DNA from: Micrococcaceae bacterium Sec5.1
Lineage (GTDB): Bacteria > Actinomycetota > Actinomycetes > Actinomycetales > Micrococcaceae
Reading direction: 5' to 3'
NCBI GenBank assembly: GCA_039636795.1
Contig: CP143430.1
Location: 1,116,001-1,180,000, forward strand
DNA: 64,000 bases
A program made the translations under genes and the position numbers. Positions 24,936 through 56,867 of this stretch are shown here, in pieces. The stretch's first letter is position 1, and the number at the start of each line of letters is the position of its first letter. The notes under the pieces were generated by a model. That model was given only the letters and a program-made list of their open reading frames with translations, was not told the origin of the DNA and ran no database searches.

Positions 24936-24991
24936 TTCGTTACCTCAGTTCCAAAACTATGGCCATGACATGCTCGGGTCCAGACTCCCAG

Positions 24992-28556: not shown

Positions 28557-28585
28557 ACGCCAATCGCGCTGGCACCGCGAAGGGC
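28339..28585. repeat. Segment repeated at 51176-51422 (3' part of the zinc-ribbon gene)
   Basis: These 247 bases recur with the same length and only a handful of substitutions in the right-hand patchwork. The shared part begins at AAGTGTTCCG and ends at CCGCGAAGGGC, 29 bases after the zinc-ribbon stop codon. Confidence 0.9.
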
Positions 28586-32497: not shown

Positions 32498-32743
32498 GAT
32501 TGTCCTCTCAGTGGTGCAGTAAAGCTGTGCACTTTCCATTGAGACTAGGCAGTCGGGAGGGCTGCGTCACGGTGCAGAAAGTCGATTTAGGCGCTTTCCT
32601 TTGTACGAAACGTCAAATGTGTGGAGGAGCCGGTGTATAGCCGCGATTAGGGGAGGCCCCTATGTATGCGGGATAGGCAGCTTCGTCAGGGGTCGCTTCA
32701 TGCCGTCGCTAGTAGTTTCCGGCCTCTGGATCAGGCGGTGCCT

Positions 32744-34307: not shown

Positions 34308-35666
34308 ATGACTGTCACATCAGAACTCGCCGCCAACCTGGCCAAAGATCCGGCCTCCGTTAAGGCCGCAGCACGCCGCTTGCTCACCGAGCTTCCGGGC
34401 CCGCGTTCCCGCGAGCTGGAAGCCGAACGCCGCCAGCACGTCACCAACGCATTTGGTATCACCCTGCCCGTGTTCATTGACCACGCCCAGGGCGCGCTGC
34501 TCGTAGACGTGGACGGGAACCATCTCATTGATTTCGCCTCAGGCATTGCCGTGACCAGCGTTGGCGCTGCAAACCCCAAGGTGGCCAAGCGCGCCGCCGC
34601 CCAGCTTGAGCGCTTCACCCACACCTGCTTCATGGTGACCGAATACGAGTCCTTCGTTGAAGTCTGCCGGTGGCTCAACGAGCACACCCCCGGCGACTTC
34701 GAGAAGCGGACCGCACTGTTCACCACCGGTGCGGAGGCTGTAGAAAACGCCATTAAGGTCGCCCGGGCAGCCACTCGCCGCCCCAACATTCTCGTCTTCG
34801 ACGAGGCATACCACGGCCGCACCCAGCTCACAATGGCGATGACGGCCAAGGAGAACCCGTACCGGCTCAACTTCGGACCGCTGCCGGGCTCAGTCTTCCG
34901 CGGACCGACGGCGCCTGCCCACACTTCTCCTGACGGACCGGGGAAGGCACTGGAACAGATCGAGGCGCTTCTGGCAGAACACGGCGCGGAAACATTCGCC
35001 GCTATGGTCATCGAACCCATTCAGGGCGAGGGCGGCTTCATTGTCCAGGCCCCCGGGTTCCTGGAAGGCATTCGTGAAATCGCGACCCGCCACGGCATCG
35101 TACTGGTTATCGATGAGATCCAAGCGGGCATGGGCCGGACCGGCAAACTGTTCGCGTCCGAGCATGAAGGTATTGCCGGCGACATCACGCTGACCGCGAA
35201 AGCTCTTGGCGGTGGATTACCGCTTTCAGCCGCTACCGGCCGCGCCGAACTGATGAACGCTGTCCACACAGGTGGTCTCGGCGGGACCTACGCGGGCAAC
35301 CCCGTAGCTTGTGAAGCCGCTTTGGCTGTCTTCGAACTCCTCGAAGACGGCAAGCTCCTGAAGAACGCCACAGCCATCGAAACCGCAGTCAGGCGCCGCC
35401 TGGAGCCGCTCGTCGAACTCGACGGCGTCGCAGACGTTCGCGGCAGGGGTGCAATGATGGCGATCGAATTCCGCGATTCCTCAGGGCCCCGTGGAGACCT
35501 TGCCACTGCGGCCGCGAAGGCAGCCAACGCTTATGGTGTCCTGACTCTTACGTGCGGGACCAACGGAAACATCATCCGGCTGCTGCCTCCGCTCGGGATC
35601 GAAGCGGACGTCCTCGACGAAGGCCTTGCAGTGTTGGAGGCATCCGTTCGGTCGGTATTGTCATGA
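34308..35666 (+). CDS. gabT: Class III omega-aminotransferase (GABA / 5-aminovalerate type)
   Basis: The 452-residue PLP enzyme has the aminotransferase marks TTGAEAVENAIK, the PLP-contacting DEIQAGMGRTG and the Schiff-base lysine K298 in TAKALGGG. It moves the terminal amino group of an omega-amino acid to 2-oxoglutarate, giving a semialdehyde. ATG at 34308 has AGGAG five bases upstream. The next two genes, a CaiB-type CoA-transferase and a glutaryl-CoA-dehydrogenase-like enzyme, favour 5-aminovalerate over 4-aminobutyrate as the natural substrate, which is inference from context. Confidence 0.9.
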   Translation: MTVTSELAANLAKDPASVKAAARRLLTELPGPRSRELEAERRQHVTNAFGITLPVFIDHAQGALLVDVDGNHLIDFASGIAVTSVGAANPKVAKRAAAQLERFTHTCFMVTEYESFVEVCRWLNEHTPGDFEKRTALFTTGAEAVENAIKVARAATRRPNILVFDEAYHGRTQLTMAMTAKENPYRLNFGPLPGSVFRGPTAPAHTSPDGPGKALEQIEALLAEHGAETFAAMVIEPIQGEGGFIVQAPGFLEGIREIATRHGIVLVIDEIQAGMGRTGKLFASEHEGIAGDITLTAKALGGGLPLSAATGRAELMNAVHTGGLGGTYAGNPVACEAALAVFELLEDGKLLKNATAIETAVRRRLEPLVELDGVADVRGRGAMMAIEFRDSSGPRGDLATAAAKAANAYGVLTLTCGTNGNIIRLLPPLGIEADVLDEGLAVLEASVRSVLS

Positions 35667-35694
35667 TTTTCCGGGGAAGGCGGCGGGGGCGGCG

Positions 35695-36951
35695 ATGAGG
35701 TCGCGGGCGGGCTCTGGCGCACCACTGGCGGGGATCGTCGTCGCTGATTTCTCCCGCGTGCTCGCCGGTCCGCTCGCGACAATGACCCTGGCCGATCTCG
35801 GTGCCCGGGTCATCAAGGTTGAGCGCCCCGGAACCGGGGATGACACACGGCAGTGGGCGCCACCTTCCTCAGTGACAGGTGCGACGTACTTCGAAAGCGT
35901 CAATCGGAATAAGGAATCAGTCACCCTTGACCTGACCAACCCCGAGGACCTGGAGCTTGCCCGGGAACTGGCACGCCGCGCCGACGTCCTGGTGGAGAAC
36001 TTCAAACCCGGAGGGCTCGCCAAGCTGGGCCTCGGATATGAGTCACTGGCTGAGGAGAACCCAGGCCTGGTGTACGCATCAATTTCGGGTTTTGGCTCGG
36101 AAGGCGGCCGTGATCTGCCCGGATACGACTTCATAGTGCAGGCCGTCGGCGGATTGATGAGTATTACCGGTGACCCGCGGGGCGACGCCTATAAAGTGGG
36201 CGTCGCCCTCGTTGATGTATTGACGGCGAAAGATGCCACGATCGGTATCCTCGCAGCCCTTTCCGAGCGAAATTCCACGGGTCGGGGCAGGCGGATCGAA
36301 GTCAATCTTCTATCGAGCCTCCAGGGCGCCCTTGCCAACCAGGGTCAGGCGTACCTCGGCGCCGGTGTTACTCCTGCGCGACTGGGCAATGACCACCCTT
36401 CCATCGTCCCTTATCAACTTCTTGCCACAGGTGATGACCCACTGGCCGTTGCCGTTGGTAACGACTCGCAGTTCGCCAAGCTCTGCCGCGCCATCGGCAA
36501 TCCGGAGCTTGCCGCTGACCCCCGGTTTGTCACAAACTCTGCGCGGGTCCGCCATCGGCGGGAGCTTGTCAAACTGTTGGAAGCCGGGCTCGCAGGCGCT
36601 GGAGCGAAGGAATGGCAGGACCGGCTGGTATCTGTGGGAGTACCGGCCGGCCGCGTGGCCGGGATAGATGAAGGAATCGCATACGCCGAATCCTTGGGCC
36701 TGGAGCCGACCATTCATGTCCATGACGCCCGCGGGAACGTTACCGGCCGCCAGATCCGCCATCCGATCACCTGGACGCCGGCACTGCCGCCCCGGGCTCA
36801 GGCCCCACCAGCGCTCGGTGAGCACACCGTTGACGTGCTGGACTGGCTGCGGCAGGCCCAGACCAAGGCGTTCATCTCTACCCCTCAAAATTCCAGGCTT
36901 TCAGAAGTCGTTCATTCCCAGGAGGGACCACATCATGACTCTCGCCCCTAG
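35695..36951 (+). CDS. Family III CoA-transferase (CaiB/BaiF), possible glutarate CoA-transferase
   Basis: The 418-residue protein begins with the usual FSRVLAGPLATMTLADLGARVIKVE pattern (shown by its key residues G-P-x2-T-M-x-L-A-D-L-G-A) and has the catalytic Asp in VALVDVLTAKDA. It moves CoA between carboxylic acids. A family III transferase next to glutaryl-CoA dehydrogenase is the arrangement known for glutarate activation in pseudomonads and mitochondria (GcdG/SUGCT), so glutarate is the favoured acceptor. The gene ends inside the start of the following acyl-CoA dehydrogenase gene (17-base overlap). Confidence 0.88.
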   Translation: MRSRAGSGAPLAGIVVADFSRVLAGPLATMTLADLGARVIKVERPGTGDDTRQWAPPSSVTGATYFESVNRNKESVTLDLTNPEDLELARELARRADVLVENFKPGGLAKLGLGYESLAEENPGLVYASISGFGSEGGRDLPGYDFIVQAVGGLMSITGDPRGDAYKVGVALVDVLTAKDATIGILAALSERNSTGRGRRIEVNLLSSLQGALANQGQAYLGAGVTPARLGNDHPSIVPYQLLATGDDPLAVAVGNDSQFAKLCRAIGNPELAADPRFVTNSARVRHRRELVKLLEAGLAGAGAKEWQDRLVSVGVPAGRVAGIDEGIAYAESLGLEPTIHVHDARGNVTGRQIRHPITWTPALPPRAQAPPALGEHTVDVLDWLRQAQTKAFISTPQNSRLSEVVHSQEGPHHDSRP

Positions 36952-38137
36952 TTCCGCCGAGATCGAGGCTGTTACCGCATTCGAGCCCTCCGACCTGATC
37001 TCCTTCGATACGCTCCTCACGGAGGAGGAAATCGCCTTGCGCGACCGGGTCCGGAATTATGTTCGGGAGGAAATCAAACCGAACATCGCCACCTGGTATG
37101 AAGAAGCGCGATTCCCGCTGGAAATCGTCCCTGATCTCGCCAAACTCGGCCTGCTCGGAATGCATTTGAAAGGCTACGGCTGCGCCGGGGGAAGCGCAGT
37201 GGACTACGGGTTGGCCGCAGCCGAACTCGAGGCCGGCGATTCGGGCATCCGCACTTTCGTTTCCGTCCAGGGTTCTCTGGCCATGTCAGCAATCTCGAAG
37301 CACGGTTCTGAAGAACAGAAAGAGGAATGGCTTCCCCAAATGGCGGCTGGCACCGCCATCGGATGCTTTGGCCTTACGGAACCCACCGCCGGTTCAGACC
37401 CCTCTGCCATGGCCACTTTTGCCCGCCGCGACGGCGAGGATTGGATATTGACCGGCTCCAAGCGGTGGATCGGACTCGCCAACGTGGCCCAGGTGGCAGT
37501 CATATGGGCTCAGACAGACCATGGCATACGCGGATTCATGGTGCCAACCCAGACTCGTGGCTTTACCGCCACCCCAATTCAGCCGAAGCTGTCAATGCGC
37601 GCTTCTGTCCAATGTGAAATCACCCTGGATGACGTACGGCTGCCTGGCGACGCGGTCTTGCCGAATGTCACTGGCCTCCGCGGCCCATTTACCTGCCTCA
37701 ACGAGGCACGATACGGCATCGCCTGGGGCACCATGGGCGCCGCGCGCGACGCCTTCGAAATTGCCCTGGACTACTCCAAGAATCGGCTCCAGTTCGAACG
37801 GCCCTTGGCCGGTTACCAATTGACCCAGCAGAAACTCGTGAACATGGCGCTGGAGATCAACAAGGGCTTCCTTCTCGCTCTGCACCTCGGACGGCTAAAA
37901 GACGCAGGCAAACTGCAGAATCATCAGATCAGCGTGGGCAAGCTCAACAACTGCCGAGAAGCTATCGAAATTTGTCGTGAAGCACGCACAATCCTGGGCG
38001 GAAACGGTATAACCCTCGAACACTCGCCCCTTCGCCACGCGAACAACCTTGAATCCGTACGTACGTACGAAGGCACTGACGAGGTCCACACCCTCATCCT
38101 CGGCCAGAAGCTGACAGGCATTGGAGCGTTTCGGTAA
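36935..38137 (+). CDS. gcdH: Acyl-CoA dehydrogenase, glutaryl-CoA dehydrogenase-like
   Basis: The 400-residue flavoenzyme has catalytic E379 in TYEGTDEVH. R106 in GIRTFVSVQGSL matches the arginine that holds the free carboxylate in decarboxylating glutaryl-CoA dehydrogenases (GYRS in the human enzyme), while the following Ser is Thr here. FGLTEPTAGSDP and the C-terminal LGGNGI are also typical. It would turn glutaryl-CoA into crotonyl-CoA plus CO2. ATG at 36935 has AGGAGGG at good spacing. It is the last gene of the three-gene rightward operon. Confidence 0.85.
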   Translation: MTLAPSSAEIEAVTAFEPSDLISFDTLLTEEEIALRDRVRNYVREEIKPNIATWYEEARFPLEIVPDLAKLGLLGMHLKGYGCAGGSAVDYGLAAAELEAGDSGIRTFVSVQGSLAMSAISKHGSEEQKEEWLPQMAAGTAIGCFGLTEPTAGSDPSAMATFARRDGEDWILTGSKRWIGLANVAQVAVIWAQTDHGIRGFMVPTQTRGFTATPIQPKLSMRASVQCEITLDDVRLPGDAVLPNVTGLRGPFTCLNEARYGIAWGTMGAARDAFEIALDYSKNRLQFERPLAGYQLTQQKLVNMALEINKGFLLALHLGRLKDAGKLQNHQISVGKLNNCREAIEICREARTILGGNGITLEHSPLRHANNLESVRTYEGTDEVHTLILGQKLTGIGAFR

Positions 38138-38376
38138 CTGCCGGCGTTTCTACGGCGAACCCGGCAGCGCGGCCCGGGTGCAACGGGGACCATGCAGCTG
38201 GGGCTCCTCATCGATGCAGACTGTGTGCCAGGCAACGGCAACTACCCTTGTCACCCCGTTTAATTTGCCGATTGGCATGCTCGTCTTGCCACCACCGTGT
38301 GGTCCAGACACACAGTCAAGCTGTTTCACCGAGGTCTCAATCGTTCTTGTTTTTGACCACTCCGTTTTGAAAGTTG
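38138..38376. other. Intergenic region, no clear gene
   Basis: This region follows the glutaryl-CoA-dehydrogenase-like gene. An 84-residue minus-strand frame covers much of it, but I recognise no family and it may be the decayed downstream part of the remnant at 38377-38712. No strong hairpin was found. Confidence 0.4.
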
Positions 38377-38712
38377 TCACCCTCCAACGTAAACGCCGGG
38401 CCACCGCGCGTCCGAGACGGCACCAGAGGTCACGAAGCTGCTGGCGCCATCAGCGGACAAGTCCGCGACCCCGGTGATGCGGGACGTATAAAAAGGAGGA
38501 TCGGGCTCATAGTCAATCTTTCGGTGCGCTTCATCGAAAGAGACGCCGGCTTCCAGGTCGGCCCAGACATCTGAGACGTGCGTGCCGTTCCCAAGGACGA
38601 CCAGTCGAGGTATCCCCAGACATGGCTCAATAGTTGCACGGTCTAGCGTTGCGCCAGCCGCAGATGAACCTGGGCGACTATGTCTTTGGAACCACGGGTC
38701 GAACTCCACCAC
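38377..38712 (-). pseudogene. Possible IMP-cyclohydrolase-like remnant
   Basis: A 111-codon frame contains RLVVLGNGTHVSDVWADL, then EAHRKIDYEPDPPFYTSRITGV. This resembles the middle of PurO-like IMP cyclohydrolases (a pattern such as LVVGNGxxxD, EPDxPxxTPRI). The N-terminal part with the first catalytic segment and the C-terminal part are missing, and the only start codons lie inside a hairpin. It is most likely decayed. The similarity is from memory of the pattern and could be wrong. Confidence 0.35.
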
Positions 38713-38736
38713 GCCAGGTTGGCGCGGTGGAGTTCG
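38700..38736 (-). terminator. Long hairpin downstream of the hyuA-hyuB-permease operon
   Basis: CGAACTCCACC (38700-38710) pairs with GGTGGAGTTCG (38726-38736), and inside it CGCCA pairs with TGGCG around GGT, with one A/C mismatch between the two stems. This gives 16 base pairs. It lies 37 bases after the end of the permease gene on the minus strand and is the probable operon terminator. Confidence 0.75.
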
Positions 38737-38772
38737 GATGCCGTGGGAACAAGAGTGCCGCCAAAAGGTCTA

Positions 38773-40119
38773 CTACCTAATGGCCGGATCCAGATCTTCC
38801 TCGACTGGATCGATGGTCTCCCCTGAACTGGTCATTTGTGGCGGGGAGAGCCTGTACGCGCCGTAGTAGAAGCCTGCTGCCAACGCCATGGTAATTACGG
38901 GTGCGAGTTGGGCCGCGAGTGGCCATATCGTTTGCTCCGTAAGGGCAATTCCGGCTGCTGATGCAAGGACCCACGCGCCCGCTCCAGGGCTGACTGCCTT
39001 GAGGTTGGCCGGCCGGATGTCGGGGACGAGGGCCTGCTTTTTCCAGTTAAGGCCAATGAATACCAGTGCTATGGCAACCCAAGCTGTTACGAACACGCCT
39101 TGCCAGGCCAGTGCTTTGAGGAGGTAGCTCAGGACGTCGGTGAGCATCAGCAGGAAGGCCAGCGCCCCGCACACGATGACCCAGACAGAGCGTGGCAGGT
39201 TGAGCCTGAACACGCGGCTGGCGAAGGCTGACAGATTTTCTGAGGCCAGAAAGTAGTTTGCGGTGTTTATGCGGGTCTGTGAAATGAGGATAACGAGCAG
39301 CCCGGCAAACCCCAGTGAAGAAATGAACGCCTGGACCACTCCTGTTTCCGAGGCGTCCAGCTTCCAGGCGCTCATGATGTAAATTCCCACCAGCCCGTTG
39401 AGACCGAAGGTGAAGGCGTAGAAGACCCAGCCGAACGCCACTGTTCCTAGGAATTTCTCGTCGCGGTGACGTCCTAGTCTGGCGTAGTCGAAGGTGTACA
39501 TCATCATGATGTAAACGCCCATGTAGATAAGGTATGAGGTCAGCCAGCCGGGTAGTGCCGAGGAAGAAGCCGCAGCACCGATCCAATCGGTGGGGGCGCC
39601 CTGAATCATGGTGGAGGCCACGACGACGGCGATCAGGCCTGCGAGGTAGAGCGGCAGGAGCAAACCATTGAGCTTGTCGAGCCAGTTCTGCACACCCCCC
39701 AGCGCCAGAGGAACAGCGTAGATGACCACGACCGCATACCAGATGACCATGCTGCCGCCGAAGTACTGCTGGAACGCGACGGCGATAATGGAGCCTTCAA
39801 AGACGGCGTAGTAGATGGCCGTGGCCGCAAAGATCAGCGACGCCAGCGCAGAGCCCACCAGACCAAAGAGGCTCCGTGAGAAAAGACTGACGGTCAGTCC
39901 GGTGCGGGCTGCGAAGCGTGAGAGCACCAAATTGATGGCACCGTACGTGACGATGGTCAGCACCATGCCGATGATGGTGTCGACCACCCCCACTGCCCCG
40001 GCGGAGGCTACTGCGACGTAGATCCAGAACATGGCGGAGAACACTGCCCACCAGGCCATCGTCAACGACCATTTGCCGGCCCGTTCAGTGGCAGGTAGAA
40101 CGTAGTTTGAATAAGACAA
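38773..40119 (-). CDS. NCS1-family permease (cytosine/purine/hydantoin type)
   Basis: The 448-residue transporter has about 12 membrane helices. The N-terminal ~20 residues are hydrophilic, followed by WWAVFSAMFWIYVAVASAG, and a conserved GVQNWLDKLNG loop sits mid-protein. NCS1 carriers such as Mhp1 and CodB import cytosine, allantoin, hydantoins and similar cyclic amides with Na+ or H+. The start is TTG at 40119, supported by AAAGG seven bases upstream. It lies directly downstream of the hydantoinase/oxoprolinase pair and probably imports their ring substrate. Confidence 0.88.
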   Translation of the reverse strand: MSYSNYVLPATERAGKWSLTMAWWAVFSAMFWIYVAVASAGAVGVVDTIIGMVLTIVTYGAINLVLSRFAARTGLTVSLFSRSLFGLVGSALASLIFAATAIYYAVFEGSIIAVAFQQYFGGSMVIWYAVVVIYAVPLALGGVQNWLDKLNGLLLPLYLAGLIAVVVASTMIQGAPTDWIGAAASSSALPGWLTSYLIYMGVYIMMMYTFDYARLGRHRDEKFLGTVAFGWVFYAFTFGLNGLVGIYIMSAWKLDASETGVVQAFISSLGFAGLLVILISQTRINTANYFLASENLSAFASRVFRLNLPRSVWVIVCGALAFLLMLTDVLSYLLKALAWQGVFVTAWVAIALVFIGLNWKKQALVPDIRPANLKAVSPGAGAWVLASAAGIALTEQTIWPLAAQLAPVITMALAAGFYYGAYRLSPPQMTSSGETIDPVEEDLDPAIR

Positions 40120-40212
40120 TTTCGTGCCTTTCAGATCTGTTCATGGAATGTGGATACAGCCGGGCCCGCGGACGCGATCAGCGCCGCGGGCCCAGTGTTG
40201 GTTGGATGGCGC

Positions 40213-42219
40213 TTAGTGCCAGTGGGACGCGGAACGCTTTTCCATGCTCTTGCGGAACTCTGACGTGGTCTCGGGAAACAGCTCTCCGGTTCCCCAGTCC
40301 AGGATGACGCCGTGGCGGCGGATCACGTCGAGCATGTCCACCTCTCCCGCCCGGTACTTCTGTGCCACGACGTCCGGGTCCGCCATCAACCATCCCGTGC
40401 GGTCAGCGCGGATCAGCTGGCGCAGCTCGGTGCTGGCTGGTTGATCGATCTCGAACTGGTCCAGTTCGCGGTCAATTTCGCGGATGACAACGCCGTAGTC
40501 TTTCGCGGCCCGCTCGATGGAAACGTACTCATCAATGACGTCTTCGAGGACTTCGGAGTAGGGGCGTTCCAGTGGATCGCCAAAGCCGCCCCCACCAGCG
40601 GATGGGCGTGTGAATGAGTCCCCGGAGTGCAGCGGAACCGCGGAGAAGTTGGAACCGAGGAACTTTTCCTGATCGGTGCCCTTGTTCATCCAGACACCGT
40701 GGGGGATCGATGGCAAGCCGCCTTCGATGCCCCAAGTGATGGAGCGTGCGCGGTCACAGCAGTAGCTCACTACGGTCTGCGTCGCGTCGACGAGGGTCCC
40801 GCCCTTTTCAATTCCGAGCCCACCGCGGAACCTGCCCGGGCCACCGGAGTCGGTTCCGATCTGGTGCACAGTGGTCAGGACCGGCGACAACCGCTCCTGA
40901 CCTTCGATGGGTTGGACCGCCAAGCCGGGGCCGAAGACCGGGGCGGTGGCGCTGGCACCGTCCTTGGAGGCTCGGCCGCCCCAGCCGCCGGCCATCCAGT
41001 CGTACCACATGAAGTAGGGGCTATCGTCAGTGCGGCCGTCACGGCCGCCCACTAGGAGGTACTCGAGGTTGAACGCACATGCCATGGCCCGCTCGGGCAT
41101 GATCTGGGACCATAGCTCGAATATGCCGTTCATGAGTTTTTCGTAAGGGCCGGAGCAGAAACCGGTGACGGCGTACGGCCAACCGGCGTTGACCACGGTG
41201 CCTTCCGGCCCAATTTCTGCTTCGACAGCCGCGTAGAAGCCGGAGTTCAGCGGTACGTCTGGGAAGAACGTCTTGGTGCCGGCGTAGATTGCCGAGTGAG
41301 TGGTGCCGTAGCCGGAGTTGAGGAAGGTTTCGACGGCGGGCGCGGAACCGGTCAGGTCGTAGTGGATGCCCTTGCCGTCCAGCGTCAGCTTGATCTTGAT
41401 GGGCACCAGGCCTTCGCCCTTGCCAGGGTCGAAGTCGATGTAGTCTGTGGTCTCCCACACTCCCTGGGGCAGGGATTCCAGGCGGCGCAGGACGATCCGT
41501 TCAACGTAGTCCTGGGTTTCCTGCATTGCTGCCACAACTGTCGACTTCGAGTACTTGTCCACGAGCCGGAGGACTTCCCGTTCGCAAACGGCGGTGGCTT
41601 CTGACTGGGCGTGGAGGTCACCCATCGCCTGGCGGGGTGCACGGGTGTTGGAGACCAGGAGCTGGGCGACGTCGTGAAGGAAAACACCCTTGCTCCAGAT
41701 CCGGACCGGGGTGATGCGCAGGCCTTCGCCGAAGTGTTCTTTGGCATTGACGTCGAATGAACCGGGAACGTTGCCACCGATGTCGGCCCAGTGGCCCTTG
41801 TTCTGTGCGAAGGCGATTACCTCCCCCTCGGAGAAGATCGGCCGGATGAAGCTGACGTCGTTGAAGTGCGTGCCGCCGCGGTAGGGGTCGTTGATGGCGA
41901 AAACGTCGCCAGGATGGATATCGTCCGTGAATTCGTCGATGACGGCCTTGCACTGGAAGTGCAGGGTACCGACATGGACGGCGATGTCGCCGCTGCCCTG
42001 CATGACGGTGTTTCCGTTCGCGTCGCAGAGTGCCGAGGAGAAGTCACGGGAGTAAATAACGAAGGAGTAGCAAGTCCTCAAGATCTGCTCGCTCATCAGG
42101 TCCACGCTGGTGACGAAGGCGTTTTTCAGCACCTCGAACGTCACAGGGTCAAGGCCCGATGCGTGCCGTGCACCTGCGTGCGCGACATGGAGATCTGGCG
42201 TTGTGATCACGTCGGTCAT
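40213..42219 (-). CDS. hyuB: Hydantoinase/oxoprolinase B subunit (HyuB type)
   Basis: The 668-residue subunit has family marks DPVTFEVLKNAFVTSVDLM, SRDFSSALCDANGN, DIHPGDVFAINDPYRGGTH and the Gly-rich GGGGFGDPLERP near the C-terminus. It works with the A subunit to hydrolyse a cyclic amide with ATP: 5-oxoproline, N-methylhydantoin or a lactam such as caprolactam in characterised members. The ATG follows the HyuA stop by two bases with AGGAAG upstream. The specific ring cannot be assigned from sequence alone. Confidence 0.9.
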   Translation of the reverse strand: MTDVITTPDLHVAHAGARHASGLDPVTFEVLKNAFVTSVDLMSEQILRTCYSFVIYSRDFSSALCDANGNTVMQGSGDIAVHVGTLHFQCKAVIDEFTDDIHPGDVFAINDPYRGGTHFNDVSFIRPIFSEGEVIAFAQNKGHWADIGGNVPGSFDVNAKEHFGEGLRITPVRIWSKGVFLHDVAQLLVSNTRAPRQAMGDLHAQSEATAVCEREVLRLVDKYSKSTVVAAMQETQDYVERIVLRRLESLPQGVWETTDYIDFDPGKGEGLVPIKIKLTLDGKGIHYDLTGSAPAVETFLNSGYGTTHSAIYAGTKTFFPDVPLNSGFYAAVEAEIGPEGTVVNAGWPYAVTGFCSGPYEKLMNGIFELWSQIMPERAMACAFNLEYLLVGGRDGRTDDSPYFMWYDWMAGGWGGRASKDGASATAPVFGPGLAVQPIEGQERLSPVLTTVHQIGTDSGGPGRFRGGLGIEKGGTLVDATQTVVSYCCDRARSITWGIEGGLPSIPHGVWMNKGTDQEKFLGSNFSAVPLHSGDSFTRPSAGGGGFGDPLERPYSEVLEDVIDEYVSIERAAKDYGVVIREIDRELDQFEIDQPASTELRQLIRADRTGWLMADPDVVAQKYRAGEVDMLDVIRRHGVILDWGTGELFPETTSEFRKSMEKRSASHWH

Positions 42220-42221
42220 GA

Positions 42222-44276: not shown

Positions 44277-44432
44277 CTATGTTCCTCCAGGGTGCTGATT
44301 GGGTACCAACAACCATCCGCTGCGACGTGACCCCTGTCACTGGCGAAACTAAAATTAAGGAGCAGACACCTTTGTCAGAATTACAATCAGTATTCAGCCC
44401 GGCGCTCCGTCACGTTGACGTTAGGAGTCAAG

Positions 44433-46031
44433 ATGCCCTCCGAGTCTCCCGTGACACTTTATGACGTGGTGTCAGAAGCTCCACTGGGCTTAACTCCTTT
44501 GATCCCGGGCAACCCGGTCGCTGTCATAACAGGAGCCCACACAAGCGACATCGAGGATCCGGCAGGCTGGCTGGAGCCGAACACGGTCCTGCTCACCACG
44601 GGATTGCCTTTCATAAACGCCGATAGGGACGGGCGGCTAGCCCTGAAACTTGTGGAAAATCTCGCGAAAGCCCGCGTAGCGGCCCTCTTTTTCGGCGTCG
44701 GGGTTTACTTTGATCAAGTGCCTGCCGTGCTGGTCACAGCATGCAAACAAGCCAATTTCCCCTTATACACGGTGGCGCTCGACGTTCCCTTCTACCGCAT
44801 CGAAAACTTCATCAACCAGTCCCAAGCGTCTCCTGACGCCTACCTCCAAAAGCGGGCACTGTGGCTAAGTAATGATCTGCTGCAAAGCATCTCTGCTGAG
44901 AACCCCGTTCACGCTCTCATCGTCAGACTGGCCATGGCATGCCGGGGCGCGGCGGTGCTTTACGAGGACTCCGGACGAATCGTCGAATCCTCCGGGGACG
45001 GGCCCACCCACTTGATCTGGAAAGAGCTGCGTAACGGCACTAATGCGTCTGAGGTCTTTGTTATAGGGCAATGGGGAGTGATGTCCCGGCCACTGGTGCT
45101 TCGAGGCGACGGCTTTGTTGTTGCTGTGGCCAGCAGGAATCACCGCGTACTGAAGGATCTCGGAGAGCTACTGCTGGAAACGACGCAGCGACTTCTTGCG
45201 GCAGTGAATGGAATCGCTCAGTTCTCAGATTCGAGACAACGGCACGAAAACACGCAATTGCTGACCATGCTGCAAGACGGCGTGCCAGTGGCCCGCGAGT
45301 TCAGGCACTGGGAGCGGATGCGGGCATTCAGATTCACACCCTATGAGCCGCTACGAGCGGTTGTTGCTGCAAATCTCGAACAGCAGCCCATTAGCCCTTC
45401 CTTTACGGCACAACTATTGCGGGGAGCCGAAGCCAGCGGGCTCGGGCTTCTGCTGGCTGAGAATGGCAGGACCCCCGAGAGCCCACCAGGCTTTCATGCG
45501 GTGGTCTCCAACTCATCAGCCCTGGACGCCTGGCTGGAGTTGACGGGCAGGTCTGTTTTCGTCGGCCTGTCTGAGCCATACTCCGATCTTGCCAGGACGC
45601 CCGAGTCTTTCCGGGAAGCAGAAGCAGCAGCTGGAATTGCCCGCCGGCAAATCCAGGCAGCAACGACCAGCGCCTCCGGTGCTAACCGAGGAATCGTCCG
45701 GCTGGATGAAGTGGACCCGGCCACGTGGCTCCTTGCACGTCGGCTGTCTCCACAGGATAAAGCCAAGCTGAACAGGTTTGTTGAAGCTCTCAATCTCGAC
45801 AGCGAACTGAAACAAACGGCCATCTGCTACCTGGTGAACGATCTGGACGTTGCCAAGGTGGCCGCCGTGCTGTTCGTCCACCCCAACACCGTTCGGTACC
45901 GATTGAAGAAGGTCGAAACTTTGGTGGGCGGGTCGCTCTCGAGTTCACGAACGATTGCAAACCTATACCTCGCCTTTCACGACGACATAGATGCCTGGAG
46001 CCACGCCAGTCATGAATTGCGCGATAGGTAG
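44433..46031 (+). CDS. PucR-family transcriptional regulator 2
   Basis: The 532-residue protein has an N-terminal PucR domain (DIEDPAGWLEPNTVLLTTG), a long middle region, and the C-terminal helix-turn-helix LDVAKVAAVLFVHPNTVRYRL. ATG at 44433 has AGGAG five bases upstream; a TTG 18 bases earlier is rejected. It is divergent from hyuA. It resembles PucR 1 only in family architecture. Confidence 0.9.
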   Translation: MPSESPVTLYDVVSEAPLGLTPLIPGNPVAVITGAHTSDIEDPAGWLEPNTVLLTTGLPFINADRDGRLALKLVENLAKARVAALFFGVGVYFDQVPAVLVTACKQANFPLYTVALDVPFYRIENFINQSQASPDAYLQKRALWLSNDLLQSISAENPVHALIVRLAMACRGAAVLYEDSGRIVESSGDGPTHLIWKELRNGTNASEVFVIGQWGVMSRPLVLRGDGFVVAVASRNHRVLKDLGELLLETTQRLLAAVNGIAQFSDSRQRHENTQLLTMLQDGVPVAREFRHWERMRAFRFTPYEPLRAVVAANLEQQPISPSFTAQLLRGAEASGLGLLLAENGRTPESPPGFHAVVSNSSALDAWLELTGRSVFVGLSEPYSDLARTPESFREAEAAAGIARRQIQAATTSASGANRGIVRLDEVDPATWLLARRLSPQDKAKLNRFVEALNLDSELKQTAICYLVNDLDVAKVAAVLFVHPNTVRYRLKKVETLVGGSLSSSRTIANLYLAFHDDIDAWSHASHELRDR

Positions 46032-46128
46032 ATGGACGGCCTCACGGAGCATCCGCATCCCAAGCTCACATCAGGTGTTACACAAAGCCCCGTCGTGGCG
46101 GATACAGTGACGGTATGGATGATAGTTC

Positions 46129-46965
46129 ATGTTCCTCTGCGAAAACGCCGGCAAGTCGGGCCATCAGGTTGTGACTTCAGGGATGGACTCGTCCCCCTCC
46201 AGAGGAGCCAGGACGGCGATTTTTGCACAATTGTCCGGCGTCGGGCGTTCAGAGCAGGTTGCCCAACGGCTCACTGATGCGATCCTGCTGGGTGTTCTCG
46301 CTCCCGGGGACCGGCTGCCCAGTGAAGCCGAACTAGCACAACGATTCGGAGTGGCCCTGGTAACGGCGCGCGAGGCATTAAGCGCTATGCGCAATGCCGG
46401 CGTCGTGGAGACCCGACGCGGACGCGAAGGTGGAAGTTTCGTTCTGCCTGCGTTGCAGGCCCCGGAGGCATTGCGTTGGGCACGCCTGCGCAATCTGGCT
46501 CGTATTGACATCCAGGACAGTGCCACTTACTTCGCAGTTCTCAGCGCAGGCTGTTCCGAACGTGCCGCCGAGTTAGCATCGGACGAGGAATCCGAGCGCC
46601 TTAGGCTCTGGGTTGAAAATGCAGACTTCACTGCCAAGACCAGCGCTGCTCTTAATGCCGGCGGTTTCTACCTTGAAATCGCCGTAATGAGCCAGTCTCC
46701 GCGCCTTGTGCGGGAACAGATTCGCATGCAGTCCGAATTCGGTTCCCTTCTTTGGCTCGGCCTTGCCGACGAGGACCTGCGCCGGAACCTCGTCCACCAG
46801 AACGTACAGATTGCCGAAGCCATTTCGGCTCACGATCCTGAGCAGTCCCGTGCCCTGGTGCGCCGCCAACTGGGGGAACTGTCCGGTTGGTTGTTGGCCG
46901 CAAAAGAGAAAATTGAGCAACAGGAGGAGAGCGATGGCCATGAGGAACAACAGGCCACCGGCTGA
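46129..46965 (+). CDS. GntR-family (FadR subgroup) transcriptional regulator
   Basis: The protein has up to 278 residues. The winged helix includes LGVLAPGDRLPSEAELAQRFGV and VTAREALSAMRNAGVVETRRGREGGSFV, each a hallmark of GntR proteins; a C-terminal helical FCD domain follows from about residue 125. FadR-type proteins respond to carboxylic acids or amines. The start is uncertain: ATG at 46129, GTG at 46171 and ATG at 46183 all lack a clear ribosome-binding site. Its end overlaps the Cache protein gene by 32 bases, so it is co-transcribed with the aldehyde dehydrogenase and APC permease genes. Confidence 0.85.
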   Translation: MFLCENAGKSGHQVVTSGMDSSPSRGARTAIFAQLSGVGRSEQVAQRLTDAILLGVLAPGDRLPSEAELAQRFGVALVTAREALSAMRNAGVVETRRGREGGSFVLPALQAPEALRWARLRNLARIDIQDSATYFAVLSAGCSERAAELASDEESERLRLWVENADFTAKTSAALNAGGFYLEIAVMSQSPRLVREQIRMQSEFGSLLWLGLADEDLRRNLVHQNVQIAEAISAHDPEQSRALVRRQLGELSGWLLAAKEKIEQQEESDGHEEQQATG

Positions 46966-47674
46966 ACGCGGGAGCGAGTGCTCCGCTGGTATTGGCGCCC
47001 TCTTCGCAAACGTTTTCTCCCTGCTTGGAGCCTGGCGAACGTCTATCGAACAAGCAGGGAACGGCGAGTCAAATGTTCAAATCGACTCGCTGGTTTATTC
47101 CCTGGTGGAACCCGAGTTGACCGCTGAGAACCCTCTGTTGATCGGAGCTGGTTTTATTTCGGCTCCGAAAACGGGATTGGGGCAGGCTCTCCACTTTGCC
47201 TGGTGGTTGGGACCACTGCAGGAGAATCCCCTGCTAGGCACAACCACAACCCCCAGCAGGCTGGACCTGGCTTCGCGCGAGTACACGGAGTACCTGCGAG
47301 ACTTCAGAGCTTTCGAGTGGTACCGCATTCCTGCAGCCACTAGATCTGGCCACATCACGGGCCCTTACGTGGACCATTTATGCACGTGTGACTACATACT
47401 AACCATCACTGTTCCTGTAGGAAGCTCGGAATCGGTGCAAGGTGTGGTCGGGGTAGACATCCTCGTCAGGCGGTTGGAGCAGGAGCTGATGCCGCTGCTT
47501 CGTAGGGCGGAAACGGCCGTGGCGCTCGTCAGTAGCAATGGCCGCGTCATTCTATCGGTTTCTCCTGCGCTGCGTGTCGGCTCCATGGTTTCAAGTACCA
47601 GCGCCGACGAGCACGGCTGGAAGGCCTTGGCGTGCCCAGGGACAGAGTTTTCGCTCCTGATGCAGAAAGAATAA
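46934..47674 (+). CDS. Cache-type sensor-domain protein without membrane segments
   Basis: The 246-residue product starts at ATG 46934 with AGGAGG six bases upstream, inside the end of the GntR gene. The middle looks like a PDC/Cache sensor: FEWYRIPAATRSGHITGPYVDHLCTCDYILTITVPV, read in the usual strand order with the -GxxxGPYxD- core, then VQGVVGVDILVRRLE. There is no signal peptide, membrane helix or output domain. A soluble, freestanding Cache protein coupled to a GntR regulator is unusual; it may present a ligand to the regulator. That role is inference. Confidence 0.75.
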   Translation: MAMRNNRPPAERGSECSAGIGALFANVFSLLGAWRTSIEQAGNGESNVQIDSLVYSLVEPELTAENPLLIGAGFISAPKTGLGQALHFAWWLGPLQENPLLGTTTTPSRLDLASREYTEYLRDFRAFEWYRIPAATRSGHITGPYVDHLCTCDYILTITVPVGSSESVQGVVGVDILVRRLEQELMPLLRRAETAVALVSSNGRVILSVSPALRVGSMVSSTSADEHGWKALACPGTEFSLLMQKE

Positions 47675-47789
47675 ATTGGTTTAACATCCCATTCCAGATG
47701 ATTTAGGTGTAGTCTCACTTTACGCTGTGAAGTGCGTCACTGGCGCCAGAACGCGGCCCTCCTAAATTTCGACTCCTGGAAAGAAACAC

Positions 47790-49238
47790 ATGAGCGTGCG
47801 TGAGCTAAAAAACTTTGTCAACGGCAACTATGTGGAGTCTTCGGCGACCGAAAAGCTGGACATCATCAATCCAGCCACAGAGGAAGTCATCTCCCGAACC
47901 CCTATTTCCAACGAAAAGGACGTCGCTGCCGCCTATGCCGCAGCCTCGGCTGCCTTTGAAGCATGGGGAGAAACTACCCCCAGCGAGCGGCAACGAGCCC
48001 TGCTGCGCATTGCAGACGCCGTTGAGTCCCGCGCCGAGGAGTTCGCAGAGTTGGAATGTGCGGACACCGGCAAGCCCCGAGCCGGAATCATCTCTGATGA
48101 GATCGATGTCTTGATAGACCAGATCCGGTTCTTCGCTGGCGCCGCCCGGACATTGGAGGGACGTGCAGCGGCCGAGTATCTCGCGGACCACAGTTCCTAT
48201 ATCCGGCGTGAGCCAATAGGTGTCATCGGCCAGGTGGCGCCTTGGAACTATCCGCTGATGATGGCTACCTGGAAGGTCATCCCGGCCCTTGCCGCCGGGA
48301 ACACGGTAGTCCTTAAGCCTTCGGATTCCACCCCGGGCTCCACCCTCCTGTTCGCCGAGCTAGCCAGCGAGTTCCTTCCGGCCGGGGCCTTCAACGTAGT
48401 TCTCGGCGACCGGAGCACCGGCCGTGCCTTGGTGGCGGCAAAAATTCCCGGGATGATCTCCATCACCGGCTCGGTTCGGGCAGGCATGGAAGTCGCTGGA
48501 GCTGCAGCCGCGGACGTCAAGCGTGTTCACTTGGAGCTCGGAGGAAAAGCGCCTGTCATCGTTTTCGAGGACGCGGATATTCCGGCAGCAGTGGAAGGAA
48601 TTGTTCCGGCTGCGTTTTATAACGCAGGCCAGGATTGCACGGCGGCCACACGCCTGCTGGTGCACGAAAGCGTCCATGACGAGTTCGTGGCCGCATTCAC
48701 CGCTGAAGTGGAGGAAAACGCCAAGACCGGCGGTCCGTTGGAGGAGGACATTTTATTCGGCCCGCTCAGCAGTGCCGAACACCTCAAGCGAGTTGCCGGC
48801 TTCATCAAGCGCCTGCCCGAACATGCTGTAATCGAAACAGGGGGCAATCGCCAAGGAACCGTGGGGTTCTTCCATGAGGCCACAGTAGTGTCCGGCTTAA
48901 GGCAGGACGACGAACTGGTGCAGGAAGAAGTTTTCGGGCCCATCGTGACTGTGCAGAAGTTCTCGACAGATTCCGAAGCCCTGAAGTTGGCCAACGACGT
49001 AGACTACGGCCTGGCATCGTCAGTCTGGACCCAGAACCACACACGGGCAATGCAGTTCGCAAAGAAGCTGGACTTCGGGTGCGTTTGGATCAACACCCAT
49101 ATCCCGCTCGTCGCCGAAATGCCTCACGGCGGCTTCAAGCAATCCGGCTATGGTAAAGACCTCTCAGTGTACGGTCTGGAAGAGTACACGCGAATCAAGC
49201 ACGTCATGAGCTACATCGGAACCGATCACCGTGGGTAA
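47790..49238 (+). CDS. Aldehyde dehydrogenase (aminobutyraldehyde/betaine-aldehyde type)
   Basis: The 482-residue NAD(P)-dependent enzyme has general base E249 in LELGGKAP and nucleophile C283 in NAGQDCTAATR. The N-terminal pattern (INPATEEVI, then QVAPWNYPLMMATWK) fits amino-aldehyde and semialdehyde oxidisers such as 4-aminobutyraldehyde dehydrogenase. In this island it is the best candidate to oxidise the semialdehyde made by the omega-aminotransferase. Its end overlaps the start of the APC permease. ATG at 47790 has GGAAAG upstream. Confidence 0.9.
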   Translation: MSVRELKNFVNGNYVESSATEKLDIINPATEEVISRTPISNEKDVAAAYAAASAAFEAWGETTPSERQRALLRIADAVESRAEEFAELECADTGKPRAGIISDEIDVLIDQIRFFAGAARTLEGRAAAEYLADHSSYIRREPIGVIGQVAPWNYPLMMATWKVIPALAAGNTVVLKPSDSTPGSTLLFAELASEFLPAGAFNVVLGDRSTGRALVAAKIPGMISITGSVRAGMEVAGAAAADVKRVHLELGGKAPVIVFEDADIPAAVEGIVPAAFYNAGQDCTAATRLLVHESVHDEFVAAFTAEVEENAKTGGPLEEDILFGPLSSAEHLKRVAGFIKRLPEHAVIETGGNRQGTVGFFHEATVVSGLRQDDELVQEEVFGPIVTVQKFSTDSEALKLANDVDYGLASSVWTQNHTRAMQFAKKLDFGCVWINTHIPLVAEMPHGGFKQSGYGKDLSVYGLEEYTRIKHVMSYIGTDHRG

Positions 49239-50781
49239 CGGGCAGGAGGCGCCCCAGGCGACGCCCAGTGGCATGGGTGATGGTGAGCATCTCGCAGTTT
49301 TGGGATACCAGGACACCTTCGAGCGGTCGATGTCCTTGTGGGCAAACTTCGCGCTCGGATTCACCTACCTTTCACCATTGGTTGGCGTCTACTCACTGTT
49401 CGCCATCGCCATGTCTACCGGCGGTCCGCCGTCGGTATTCTGGATCCTGATCGTCGGAGGAGGCCAGCTGCTGGTGGCTCTGGTGTTCGGTGAGGTGGTC
49501 TCGCAGTACCCCATCCACGGTGGTATTTATCCGTGGACCCGTCGGCTGTGGGGCCGACGGTATGCTTGGATGTCGGCCTGGATCTACATCTGGGCCATGA
49601 TTGTCACCATCACCTCCGTAGCGCAGTTCGGCAGCGGGTTCCTGGCAAGCCTCTTTGACCTCGAATTGACTCGGGAGGCCACGCTGTGGCTATCGATCCT
49701 CCTGCTGGGCGTGGCGCTGGCCTTGAACTTCACCGGTACCAAGACCCTGGGCCGGGTGGCACGGATCGGCCTGGTCGCGGAATTGGTTGGAGTCATTGCC
49801 GTGGGTCTTTACCTCCTGATCTTCCAGCGTAAGCAGGAATTCGGTGTTTTCTTTGACTCCATGGGCGTCCAGGGGAATGAGAGCTACGCGACTGCTTTCG
49901 TGGGCGCCGCCCTGGCCGGGCTTTTCCTGTTCTACGGGTTCGAGGCCTGCGGTGATGTGGCCGAGGAAGTAAGCGATGCTGCGCGTCGTATCCCACGGGC
50001 GATGGTCATGACCATCTTCGTGGGTGGCATATCTGCACTATTCTCTTTTTGCGGCTACGTGCTCGCAGCACCGAACCTGCAGGAGATCGTGAACGGGGAG
50101 GACGCCGACCCGATCCCGGCCATCCTGGAGGCAGCACTGGGCCCCATCGGCGCCAAGGTGTTCCTGGTCATCGCCATTACCGCGTTCCTGTCGTGCGTCC
50201 TCAGCCTCCAGGCTGCGGCCAGCCGGCTTATTTTTTCCTTCGCCCGTGATGGAATGATGCCCGGACACAGGTGGCTGTCCAAGGTCTCCGGGACCGCCAA
50301 AGTGCCCACCAATGCGCTGATCGTGGCCTGCAGCATCCCGCTGCTGCTGTGCATCATCATCTATCTTGGCTCTGACGGCCTTCTGACACAGGTTACGTCC
50401 TTTGCGGTTCTCGGCATCTACGTAGCGTTCCAGTCCGTGGTGCTCGCATCCCTCCGGCAGAGGATCAAGGGCTGGCGTCCGGCTGGGCCGTTCAGCCTCG
50501 GGGCCGCCGGATTCGTCATCAATGTCGCCGCCCTCGCATACGGCGTGTTCGCCATGGTGCTGTTAGCTTTGCCCGGCAGCACGGGTGATTTCCTGTCCGA
50601 TTGGACGGTCCTTACGGGATTGGCGATCGTCAGCGGAACCGGCCTTCTGTATCTGCTTGTGGCCCGTCCGGATGCAAAGTCCACGGCCCCCAGCGGTGAC
50701 GCCCTCAGGGTCGCGGCACTGTTGCGTCAACACCAGGACAGAAAATTGGCCGATCACGTCGAATCCCCACTCGAAAAGTGA
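49231..50781 (+). CDS. APC-superfamily amino acid/amine permease
   Basis: The protein has up to 516 residues and twelve predicted membrane helices; conserved marks include FSLGFTYLSP-like ANFALGFTYLSPLVGVYS, YPIHGGIYPWTRRLWG and GFEACGDVAEEV. It fits GABA, putrescine or other amine importers. The GTG at 49231 overlaps the aldehyde dehydrogenase stop; ATG at 49273 is an alternative start. It is the last gene of the rightward GntR-Cache-dehydrogenase-permease operon and is followed by a strong hairpin. Confidence 0.88.
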   Translation: MGNGQEAPQATPSGMGDGEHLAVLGYQDTFERSMSLWANFALGFTYLSPLVGVYSLFAIAMSTGGPPSVFWILIVGGGQLLVALVFGEVVSQYPIHGGIYPWTRRLWGRRYAWMSAWIYIWAMIVTITSVAQFGSGFLASLFDLELTREATLWLSILLLGVALALNFTGTKTLGRVARIGLVAELVGVIAVGLYLLIFQRKQEFGVFFDSMGVQGNESYATAFVGAALAGLFLFYGFEACGDVAEEVSDAARRIPRAMVMTIFVGGISALFSFCGYVLAAPNLQEIVNGEDADPIPAILEAALGPIGAKVFLVIAITAFLSCVLSLQAAASRLIFSFARDGMMPGHRWLSKVSGTAKVPTNALIVACSIPLLLCIIIYLGSDGLLTQVTSFAVLGIYVAFQSVVLASLRQRIKGWRPAGPFSLGAAGFVINVAALAYGVFAMVLLALPGSTGDFLSDWTVLTGLAIVSGTGLLYLLVARPDAKSTAPSGDALRVAALLRQHQDRKLADHVESPLEK

Positions 50782-51164: not shown

Positions 51165-51177
51165 GCATCACGGGTAA

Positions 51178-51393
51178 GTGTTCCGCATCGACATCATCGC
51201 GGCGCTCGGACGCTGCACGCACTGTGGGTCAGTCAGGGCTTTTGGCGAGACCATGGTCTTCACCGACGCGCCCGGAATTGTGGTCCGGTGCCGCGATTGC
51301 CAGGGCGTGCTGCTGCGATTGGTCCAAACACCAACCAAATACTGGCTGGATTTGAGCGGGCTCAGCTACTTGGAGATCGACCGCGAAGAGTAG
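51178..51393 (+). pseudogene. Truncated second copy of the zinc-ribbon (DUF6510-like) gene
   Basis: The frame gives 71 residues with both Cys pairs (CTHCG and CRDCQG), identical to the C-terminal two-thirds of the protein at 28224-28556 except for one residue. Repeat DNA spans 51176-51422. The only start is a GTG 14 bases after GGAGG, too far for efficient initiation, so it may be silent; the unbroken frame leaves open a working mini-protein. Confidence 0.75.
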
Positions 51394-51590
51394 ACGCCAA
51401 TCGCGCTGGCACCGCGAAGGGCTGGCTACGTCTCTATTGATGACTTCTGCTGCTCGGCCATGATGCTCCCCAAATGGATCGAAAATTCGCAGGTGTTCCT
51501 GTCCAACCTAATGTGTACGGAGCCAGTTTTGTGCGTTCACGGCCCAGGGGTCCGTGGTCCGACCCCTGGGCAGCCGCTTCTGTCTTTGCG

Positions 51591-55354: not shown

Positions 55355-55360
55355 GGCGCA

Positions 55361-56839: not shown

Positions 56840-56867
56840 GATGTTCCTATCGGATTTAAGGGGGAGG

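Follow-up and report, generated by a model that had tools for sequence, protein, structure and literature searches.

Described lactam pathways and the Sec5.1 island

Simple gamma- and delta-lactams, the monomers of nylon-4 and nylon-5, are chemically very stable. The nmpABCDEF genes of Alicycliphilus are said to support N-methylpyrrolidone (NMP) catabolism by HyuAB-type lactam opening, then succinate semialdehyde and a C4 end product. As described in PMC6061476 and PMC8453981, the caprolactam cluster of Pseudomonas jessenii GO3 comprises CapAB, PjAT, 6-oxohexanoate dehydrogenase, a CaiB-type transferase, an acyl-CoA dehydrogenase (ACAD), a 3-hydroxyacyl-CoA dehydrogenase (HAD) and a thiolase. 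PMC8453981 puts the identity of P. putida OplAB to CapAB at 80-86%, and the authors of PMC11033972 state that no mild enzymatic lactam cleavage was known to them before OplAB. The window analyzed here is a 64,000-nucleotide stretch of Micrococcaceae bacterium Sec5.1 (contig CP143430.1, bases 1116001-1180000 of the 5.43-Mb single-contig genome), and within it lies a 22-kb island that spans from an alpha/beta hydrolase to an APC-type permease (Table 1). On balance we favor its reading as a catabolic island for small cyclic amides, predicted from sequence to lead from a lactam through an omega-amino acid, a semialdehyde and a dicarboxylate to an acyl-CoA, with C5 compounds fitting the exit enzymes best.

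The chemical steps of the island run in the same order as those of the P. jessenii GO3 cluster and use the same enzyme families, and the island HyuAB retains the residues by which CapAB binds ATP and metal. The island differs in its glutaryl-CoA dehydrogenase (GCDH) exit, its PucR and GntR regulators, a permease linked to HyuAB, an SGI motif in place of SGP, and a HyuA with 35% identity to CapA. OplAB of P. putida KT2440 and the island HyuAB belong to the same superfamily of ATP-dependent lactam hydrolases; OplAB presumably falls in the CapA clade, whereas the HyuA of the window lies outside it. N-methylhydantoinase 7hk5 is a fused chain of 1288 residues with SGP, while the island has separate subunits linked to an aminotransferase. 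Neither CsiD nor LhgO was found among the annotated island genes. Our literature search, with most subscription journals outside its scope, found no description of the island. The recurring lactam catabolic island is an actinobacterial counterpart of the Pseudomonas cap and opl pathways with a different HyuAB clade and a GCDH exit. If true, this would add another large clade to the ATP-dependent lactam hydrolases, with its exit pathway attached, would explain lactam use by soil actinobacteria, and offers directly testable enzymes.

Linkage of HyuAB to the exit operon

We counted orthologs of HyuA at E ≤ 1e-250 and of the class III omega-aminotransferase (AT) at E ≤ 1e-160 in a family sample of 345 genomes, and used the same thresholds in a genus sample of 101 genomes, with 1e-220 and 1e-220 for the aminoaldehyde-type dehydrogenase (ALDHam) and the Baeyer-Villiger-type monooxygenase (BVMO); weaker matches were not counted in either sample. 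HyuA was present in 30/345 family genomes, AT in 57/345, and both in 22 (Fisher p = 2.8e-13). The two genes lay within 30 kb of each other in 11/22 (p = 5e-15 for a 60-kb target in 4 Mb), and these 11 genomes span six genera (g1, g6, g7, g8, g24 and g31) with differing gene orders. The p-values count genomes, not independent events; all are weakened because of phylogenetic non-independence, and the rearranged gene orders are the better argument.

Surroundings were examined in nine of the ten co-located genomes besides the window's own (G273 was left out), with matches covering <35% of the query dropped. AT stood with the class III CoA-transferase (CaiB), ACAD and a semialdehyde dehydrogenase (ALDHsa) in seven of the nine. 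The most compact order was PucR1, AT, CaiB, ACAD, ALDHsa, PucR2, HyuA, HyuB, permease (genome G202; loci L164/L165). G369 (L034/L174) had HyuA, HyuB, permease and CaiB in one run beside AT, ACAD, ALDHsa, HAD and thiolase. AT and an aldehyde dehydrogenase adjoined PucR2-HyuAB in L024, where the dehydrogenase scored 182 bits to PF00171, matched no NCBIfam model at 1e-40 and shared 37% identity with ALDHsa over 163 residues. A Rhodococcus gordoniae plasmid held together matches to AT (50%), ALDHsa (62%), a CaiB-like stretch (55%), two PucR and HyuAB (67%, 72%). Among 33 loci with HyuA relatives, 30 had a PucR2-like match and 27 a permease relative. Because several L loci are the same genomes as G handles (L034 = G369, L033 = G105, L025 = G242, L006 = G085), locus and genome counts are not additive.

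AT was found in 10/101 genomes of the genus sample, including those of all HyuA carriers (6/6), all ALDHam carriers (6/6) and 8/9 BVMO carriers (G016 being without AT). Distances from AT were 8-20 kb for HyuA, 4.5-25 kb for ALDHam and 4.3-4.6 kb for BVMO.

HyuAB and the permease were joined to PxpA, biotin carboxylase, PxpB and PxpC in the Cryobacterium loci L020, L021, L022, L030 and L037, an adjoining of two unrelated lactam-opening systems.

HyuAB, putative ring-opening subunits

A preliminary description of this DNA, made from the sequence alone, had named HyuA and HyuB as ring-opening subunits, and the Pfam domains of both proteins agree with that. HyuA has two DxGGT phosphate motifs (D9, D284), and D59, H118, D121 and H143 of HyuB align to the four CapB metal ligands D41, H99, D102 and H124; the DxGGT motifs and the Asp-His-Asp-His metal site of the CapAB/OplAB family are both present. 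Neither subunit reached its CapA or CapB equivalog cut-off (Table 1). HyuA was 35% identical to CapA, 41% to N-methylhydantoinase, 33% to acetophenone carboxylase and 38-40% to the two paralogs examined from its own genome. Its closest solved chain was 7hk5 (496 bits vs 379 for CapA), while HyuB was slightly nearer to CapB (277 bits) than to N-methylhydantoinase (267 bits). CapA carries a 5-oxoprolinase label in the PDB, and no other OPLAH-named entry occurred among the PDB matches of HyuA. In a tree of 12 rows, rooted for drawing only, the HyuA clade was solid (100/100) and CapA fell outside the nine-row group (91/92) holding HyuA. Of the placements that the preliminary description had raised, a grouping with CapA was not recovered and a position beside N-methylhydantoinase was, weakly (81/82).

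CapA Pro272, called conserved and near the gamma-phosphate site in PMC8453981, falls in the SGP motif. SGI stood there instead in 47/48 distinct HyuA rows (48 kept from 78 sequences, each match covering ≥85% of the HyuA length), with the distant L035 as the sole exception. The same variant was found in cluster proteins P0005, P0064, P0091 and P0110 and in 6/6 plasmid homologs (59-72% identity) from Halomonas, Rhodococcus, Methylobacterium, Sulfitobacter, Paracoccus and Ensifer, the six examined from 12 records listed (1001 matched). The four solved anchors and the two own-genome paralogs had SGP or GGP. The HyuA of the window was 94-96% identical to Pseudarthrobacter and Arthrobacter copies, so the host probably belongs with these genera. 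A HyuB paralog was matched in two pieces, the second with an internal TGA (L003/L004, genome 2391544-2393099).

Exit operon

AT is a class III omega-aminotransferase with PF00202, as first described. It missed both models for gamma-aminobutyrate (GABA) aminotransferase, PRK06058 (568.6 bits, cut-off 639) and TIGR00700 (460.7, cut-off 506.65), which the other copy in the genome passed (792.4 and 591.4). The CaiB-type assignment was likewise confirmed by PF02515; the best of seven models was succinate-glutarate CoA-transferase (NF052585), although CaiB at 347 bits missed its cut-off of 750.

The preliminary description was exactly right about R106 and E379 of ACAD, numbered from the ATG at 36935. 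In the alignment with 1sir they correspond to its SGYR Arg and TYEGT Glu, which we take to be the substrate-carboxylate Arg and the catalytic Glu of GCDH. The first ten PDB matches comprised nine labeled GCDH (536 to 334 bits, led by 3sf6 at 536 and 3swo at 524) and, in tenth place, an acyl-CoA dehydrogenase. The genome has a second GCDH at 4.13 Mb, 74% identical to ACAD. Since GCDH is near-universal in the genus (matches at E ≤ 1e-100 in 95/101 genomes) and copies ≥86% identical to ACAD are rare (7/101), the island ACAD is an extra GCDH copy.

In G075, G085, G051 and G077 (L075-L078) the operon continued after ACAD with ALDHsa, HAD and thiolase. About 100 bp of ALDHsa remain in the window at this place (relic match at G000:C1:1154165-1154245), and blastn similarity to L075-L078 extends past the ACAD end; in L007, L009, L079 and L080 the similarity stopped with ACAD itself. 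The best other ALDHsa match in the genome, at 55.4 kb of the window, was 41% identical.

The preliminary description had assigned the semialdehyde step to the aldehyde dehydrogenase at 47790-49238. That label was rejected: the protein passed the aminobutyraldehyde model PRK13473 (682 bits vs 615), missed the equivalog TIGR03374 (544 vs 909), and had 1wnb, 4dal and 6c43 as its best PDB chains. Of these, 1wnb is named a putative betaine aldehyde dehydrogenase (presumably E. coli YdcW) and 6c43 a gamma-aminobutyraldehyde dehydrogenase. This protein, ALDHam, would by its model matches work upstream, on an aminoaldehyde, not at the semialdehyde step. Because the aldehyde dehydrogenase was misassigned and the fitting one, ALDHsa, is deleted here, a route drawn from the window alone is incomplete.

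CaiB was split by an inserted open reading frame (ORF) in Arthrobacter wenxiniae AETb3-4 (L014:7888-10751), and a complete second match lay 5 kb further in L162.

Table 1 Features of the island and its flanking repeats in window coordinates.
Feature	Coordinates	Strand	Models, structures and residues
247-bp direct repeat, left copy	28339..28585	.	97.6% identical to 51176-51422
Alpha/beta hydrolase (Abhydrolase_3), overlapping BVMO stop	28873..29826	-	PF07859 217 bits
Baeyer-Villiger-type flavin monooxygenase (BVMO)	29823..31310	-	PDB 7v8o/5m0z; motifs GGVWRENTYPGAACD, FEGVAFHSSKW
Zinc-type alcohol dehydrogenase (ADH)	31343..32539	-	PF08240, PF00107; TIGR03989 251 bits, cut-off 440
PucR-type regulator 1 (PucR1), divergent from AT	32744..34183	-	NF045769 (PmfR) 55.6 bits, cut-off 800
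Class III omega-aminotransferase (AT)	34308..35666	+	PF00202; PRK06058 569 bits, cut-off 639; not housekeeping GabT
Class III CoA-transferase (CaiB)	35695..36951	+	PF02515; NF052585 347 bits, cut-off 750; PDB 10uh, 9br7
ACAD, glutaryl-CoA dehydrogenase family	36935..38137	+	E99, R106, Y378, E379; PDB 3sf6, 3swo
Relic of semialdehyde dehydrogenase (ALDHsa)	38138..38240	+	63% over 27 residues; blastn 81-84% into L075-L078
Membrane permease (NCS1-like, weak)	38773..40119	-	NCBI homolog names: purine-cytosine permease family
HyuB, lactam-hydrolase beta subunit	40213..42219	-	PF02538; NF050157 CapB 338 bits, cut-off 1000; metal ligands
HyuA, ATP-binding alpha subunit, SGI variant (I261)	42222..44276	-	PF05378, PF01968, PF19278; NF050156 CapA 521 bits, cut-off 1000
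TTGTN7ACAA inverted repeat in the HyuA-PucR2 intergenic region, putative PucR2 operator	44372..44386	-	
PucR-type regulator 2 (PucR2), divergent from HyuA	44415..46031	+	PF07905, PF17853, PF13556
GntR/FCD regulator	46129..46965	+	PF00392, PF07729
Stand-alone Cache/PDC sensor-domain protein, overlapping GntR	46934..47674	+	PF22673 35.2 bits, cut-off 27
ALDHam, gamma-aminobutyraldehyde-type dehydrogenase	47790..49238	+	PRK13473 682 vs cut-off 615; PDB 1wnb, 4dal, 6c43
APC-type permease	49231..50781	+	TIGR03428 211 bits, TIGR00907 191 bits, both below cut-offs
247-bp direct repeat, right copy	51176..51422	.	97.6% identical to 28339-28585

Proposed route and ring size of the substrate

We read substrates and direction of flow from gene content, protein families, active-site residues, linkage and recurrence. 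The permease would import the lactam, which HyuAB would open with ATP to an omega-amino acid, and AT would convert this to the semialdehyde. ALDHsa of the relatives is predicted to oxidize the semialdehyde to the dicarboxylate, a step presumably taken over in Sec5.1 by another aldehyde dehydrogenase of the genome. The CaiB-type transferase would then form the CoA ester, and the GCDH-type ACAD would oxidize and decarboxylate it to crotonyl-CoA. For a C5 chain the intermediates would be delta-valerolactam, 5-aminovalerate, glutarate semialdehyde, glutarate, glutaryl-CoA and crotonyl-CoA.

The joined pathway of the preliminary description is partly supported: repeated and rearranged co-location in six genera favors its core, ATP-dependent lactam opening that leads through an omega-amino acid into a glutarate/glutaryl-CoA exit; its choice among valerolactam, caprolactam and a piperidine is left unsettled, and the route is incomplete in this genome. 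C5 is the most likely ring size judged by the enzyme types: ACAD is of the GCDH kind, and in three relatives the thiolase of the AT operon is of the acetoacetyl-CoA type. That thiolase (L078/L076/L174) scored 409/408/360 bits as acetyl-CoA C-acetyltransferase and 273/271/259 as 3-oxoadipyl-CoA thiolase. The presence of a separate GabT above the cut-off for GABA was also counted for the C5 route. P. putida OplAB, which is distantly related, is strongly active on delta-valerolactam and has only trace activity on gamma-butyrolactam, as reported in PMC11033972.

Several observations weigh against the favored reading, besides the non-independence of the genomes counted. Eight of the 30 HyuA genomes had no AT at the family threshold, and half of those with both genes (11/22) did not have the two within 30 kb on one contig. 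G105 and G242 had AT with the BVMO unit and neither CaiB nor ACAD in the stretch examined. The R. gordoniae plasmid had no ACAD match and an in-frame stop one third into its CaiB-like stretch. An ACAD lacking its middle (about residues 98-260) stood beside CaiB and AT in Pseudarthrobacter oxydans CC185 (G061; L007:16873-17544). Sec5.1 lacks the ALDHsa, HAD and thiolase that complete the AT operon in relatives, so the island may be decaying. CaiB and AT fell below the curated cut-offs of their nearest models, HyuA is marginally nearer to N-methylhydantoinase than to CapA, and the inverted repeat found before HyuA did not occur before AT (see below). Besides the thiolase belonging to its AT operon, L034 had another one (689-1897) next to a HAD, across HyuAB and roughly 6 kb away from PucR2; this one scored best as 3-oxoadipyl-CoA thiolase (517 bits, cut-off 605).

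A C4 route is the strongest of the alternatives, though we consider it unlikely. HyuAB would open 2-pyrrolidone to GABA, or an N-alkylated 2-pyrrolidone to N-alkyl-GABA, to be passed through succinate semialdehyde to succinate, with CaiB-GCDH as a neighboring 5-aminovalerate/glutarate module sharing only AT. On a Halomonas plasmid, HyuAB (72%, 75%) is flanked by a cytosine permease on one side and an HTH protein on the other; succinate-semialdehyde dehydrogenase (SSADH) and an aminotransferase come next, and neither CaiB nor ACAD was matched in that stretch. An SSADH-like gene adjoins the BVMO unit in relatives (beside the hydrolase in L075, L076, L078, L079 and L080), with no match at that place in the window, and the best model for the PucR proteins was PmfR, far below its cut-off. 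HyuAB also occurred with PxpA, biotin carboxylase, PxpB and PxpC, of which PxpABC is 5-oxoprolinase in the account of PMC8453981, in the five Cryobacterium loci and on a Methylobacterium plasmid. However, AT, CaiB, ACAD and ALDHsa stand with HyuAB in relatives, succinate formation makes a GCDH unnecessary, and the genome already holds a GabT above cut-off.

Epsilon-caprolactam, degraded as in P. jessenii GO3 through 6-aminohexanoate, adipate, adipyl-CoA and beta-oxidation, is an improbable substrate. According to PMC6061476, caprolactam induces the same set of enzymes there (HyuAB, aminotransferase, aldehyde dehydrogenase, CaiB-type transferase, ACAD, HAD and thiolase); the 3-oxoadipyl-CoA-type thiolase that L034 carries with a HAD is the one that a C6 route needs, and a caprolactam-degrading Paenarthrobacter exists, for which the accessible text of PMC11465857 names no genes. 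Against C6 stand the GCDH type of ACAD and the acetoacetyl-CoA type of the AT-operon thiolase in L078, L076 and L174. Gulosibacter molinativorax HyuAB, probably of this clade, also speaks against it: in E. coli cells it did not remove caprolactam, whereas a ChnC-type hydrolase did, as given in PMC9477822. The same source reports Gulosibacter hyuA raised in molinate-grown cells (log2 3.59; 2.85-fold by RT-qPCR). Judged by species and identity, the HyuA tested was probably P0110 (77% identical), and a lack of expression may account for the negative result.

The least probable alternative is that HyuAB acts on a hydantoin-type cyclic ureide and merely neighbors the omega-amino acid genes: the closeness of HyuA to 7hk5, its weakly supported place in the tree, the purine-cytosine permease names of the permease homologs and an M20-family amidohydrolase (TIGR01891 194 bits, above cut-off) in 5/72 loci, all close relatives (L005, L006, L075, L076, L078), would fit it, but HyuB is slightly nearer to CapB, HyuAB is linked to aminotransferase and dicarboxylate-CoA genes, and the M20 protein had no hydantoinase or carbamoylase model among its four NCBIfam matches at E ≤ 1e-10 and is absent between ACAD and the permease in the window. 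M20 enzymes include N-carbamoyl amino acid hydrolases.

Possible further entry units

Alcohol dehydrogenase, BVMO and lactone hydrolase make up the pathways for cyclopentanol and cyclohexanol. The same enzyme types stand in one run at 28.9-32.5 kb, and this unit belongs to the island. Every gene that the preliminary description named is present, but it had overlooked this unit as well as the Cache/PDC protein next to GntR, the ALDHsa relic and the bracketing repeats. The hydrolase differs from those pathways in that its classified relative is nearest to LipP1-type esterases: its 89% match L075:1936-2889 scored 277 bits to NF058653 LipP1 (cut-off 350). The best PDB chains for BVMO were cyclohexanone monooxygenase (7v8o/5m0z), followed by phenylacetone monooxygenases. 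Type I BVMOs have the fingerprints GGxWxxxxYPGxxxD and FxGxxxHxxxW(P/D); the first is present as GGVWRENTYPGAACD, and the second reads FEGVAFHSSKW, then Arg where the consensus has Pro/Asp. In Kocuria (L033 = G105) HyuA, HyuB, ADH, BVMO and hydrolase succeed one another in the same direction, and PucR1-like matches and AT come after them. Among plasmids, the best BVMO relative (63%, Rhodococcus rhodochrous) stood with ADH, alpha/beta hydrolase, ACAD and a CaiB-type transferase. As a further entry, ADH, BVMO and hydrolase would convert a cyclic ketone through its lactone to the same semialdehyde.

ALDHam and the APC-type permease adjoined the AT module in G050 and G083, which have no HyuA passing 1e-250, and the ALDHam unit is therefore placed with the exit, not with HyuAB. 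In the simplest view GntR, Cache, ALDHam and APC would form another entry, by which an imported amine is taken through an aminoaldehyde to the same omega-amino acid.

Joined together, these units suggest, tentatively, a multi-entry funnel for C5 rings, an extended reading that is possible rather than probable. Three separately regulated entries (lactam: HyuAB and permease under PucR2; amine/aminoaldehyde: GntR-Cache, ALDHam and APC; cyclic ketone/lactone: ADH, BVMO and hydrolase) would feed one exit (AT, CaiB, GCDH), and the whole could move as a unit between the 247-bp repeats. The SGI HyuAB, whose apparently uncharacterized clade extends across Actinomycetota, Alphaproteobacteria and Gammaproteobacteria, would then represent a lactamase subfamily that is new and has a specificity of its own.

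Regulators and permeases

Two PucR proteins and one GntR protein were found, in agreement with the preliminary description. The inverted repeat TTGTN7ACAA occurred in 24/47 distinct HyuA upstream regions vs about 0.3% of shuffled ones, and in 0/23 AT upstream regions. A closer set consisted of 12 upstream regions with HyuA identity ≥86%. A shared regulon of the HyuA and AT units is unsupported because the repeat stands before HyuA and not before AT. Three other loci (L011, L012 and L015) have near HyuAB a GntR protein of 32-37% identity and after it a member of cluster c25, which Pfam recognizes as Cache in L012; the GntR and Cache pair is possibly a two-gene ligand-sensing switch.

The permease beside HyuB had been called an NCS1 carrier for cyclic amides, a label that was not confirmed: it scored 18 bits to TIGR00800 (cut-off 353), a Pfam model at E ≤ 0.1 was matched by 0/16 aligned orthologs, and its profile found no PDB chain at E ≤ 0.1. 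The sole support for NCS1 was the name of its NCBI homologs, 'purine-cytosine permease family protein'.

Repeats and neighboring genes

Two copies of the 247-bp direct repeat were found in the genome, and the hydrolase-to-APC block lies between them, 288 bp from the left one and 394 bp from the right one. If they recombined, this block would be excised. A second direct repeat pair of 750 bp (24987-25736 and 53092-53840, 95.3% identical) takes in ORFs that encode one and the same protein, left and right of the island.

A second catabolic cluster at 53936-63638 has genes for a 2,5-dioxovalerate-type aldehyde dehydrogenase, SDR, FdxA, enoyl-CoA hydratase, a CaiB-type transferase, a 454-aa protein and an MFS transporter. 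Elsewhere in the window were a Fic-family protein (51591-52790; NF046030 52.8 bits, below cut-off) and an McrB-like ATPase (9663-11897; PRK11331 149 bits, below cut-off).

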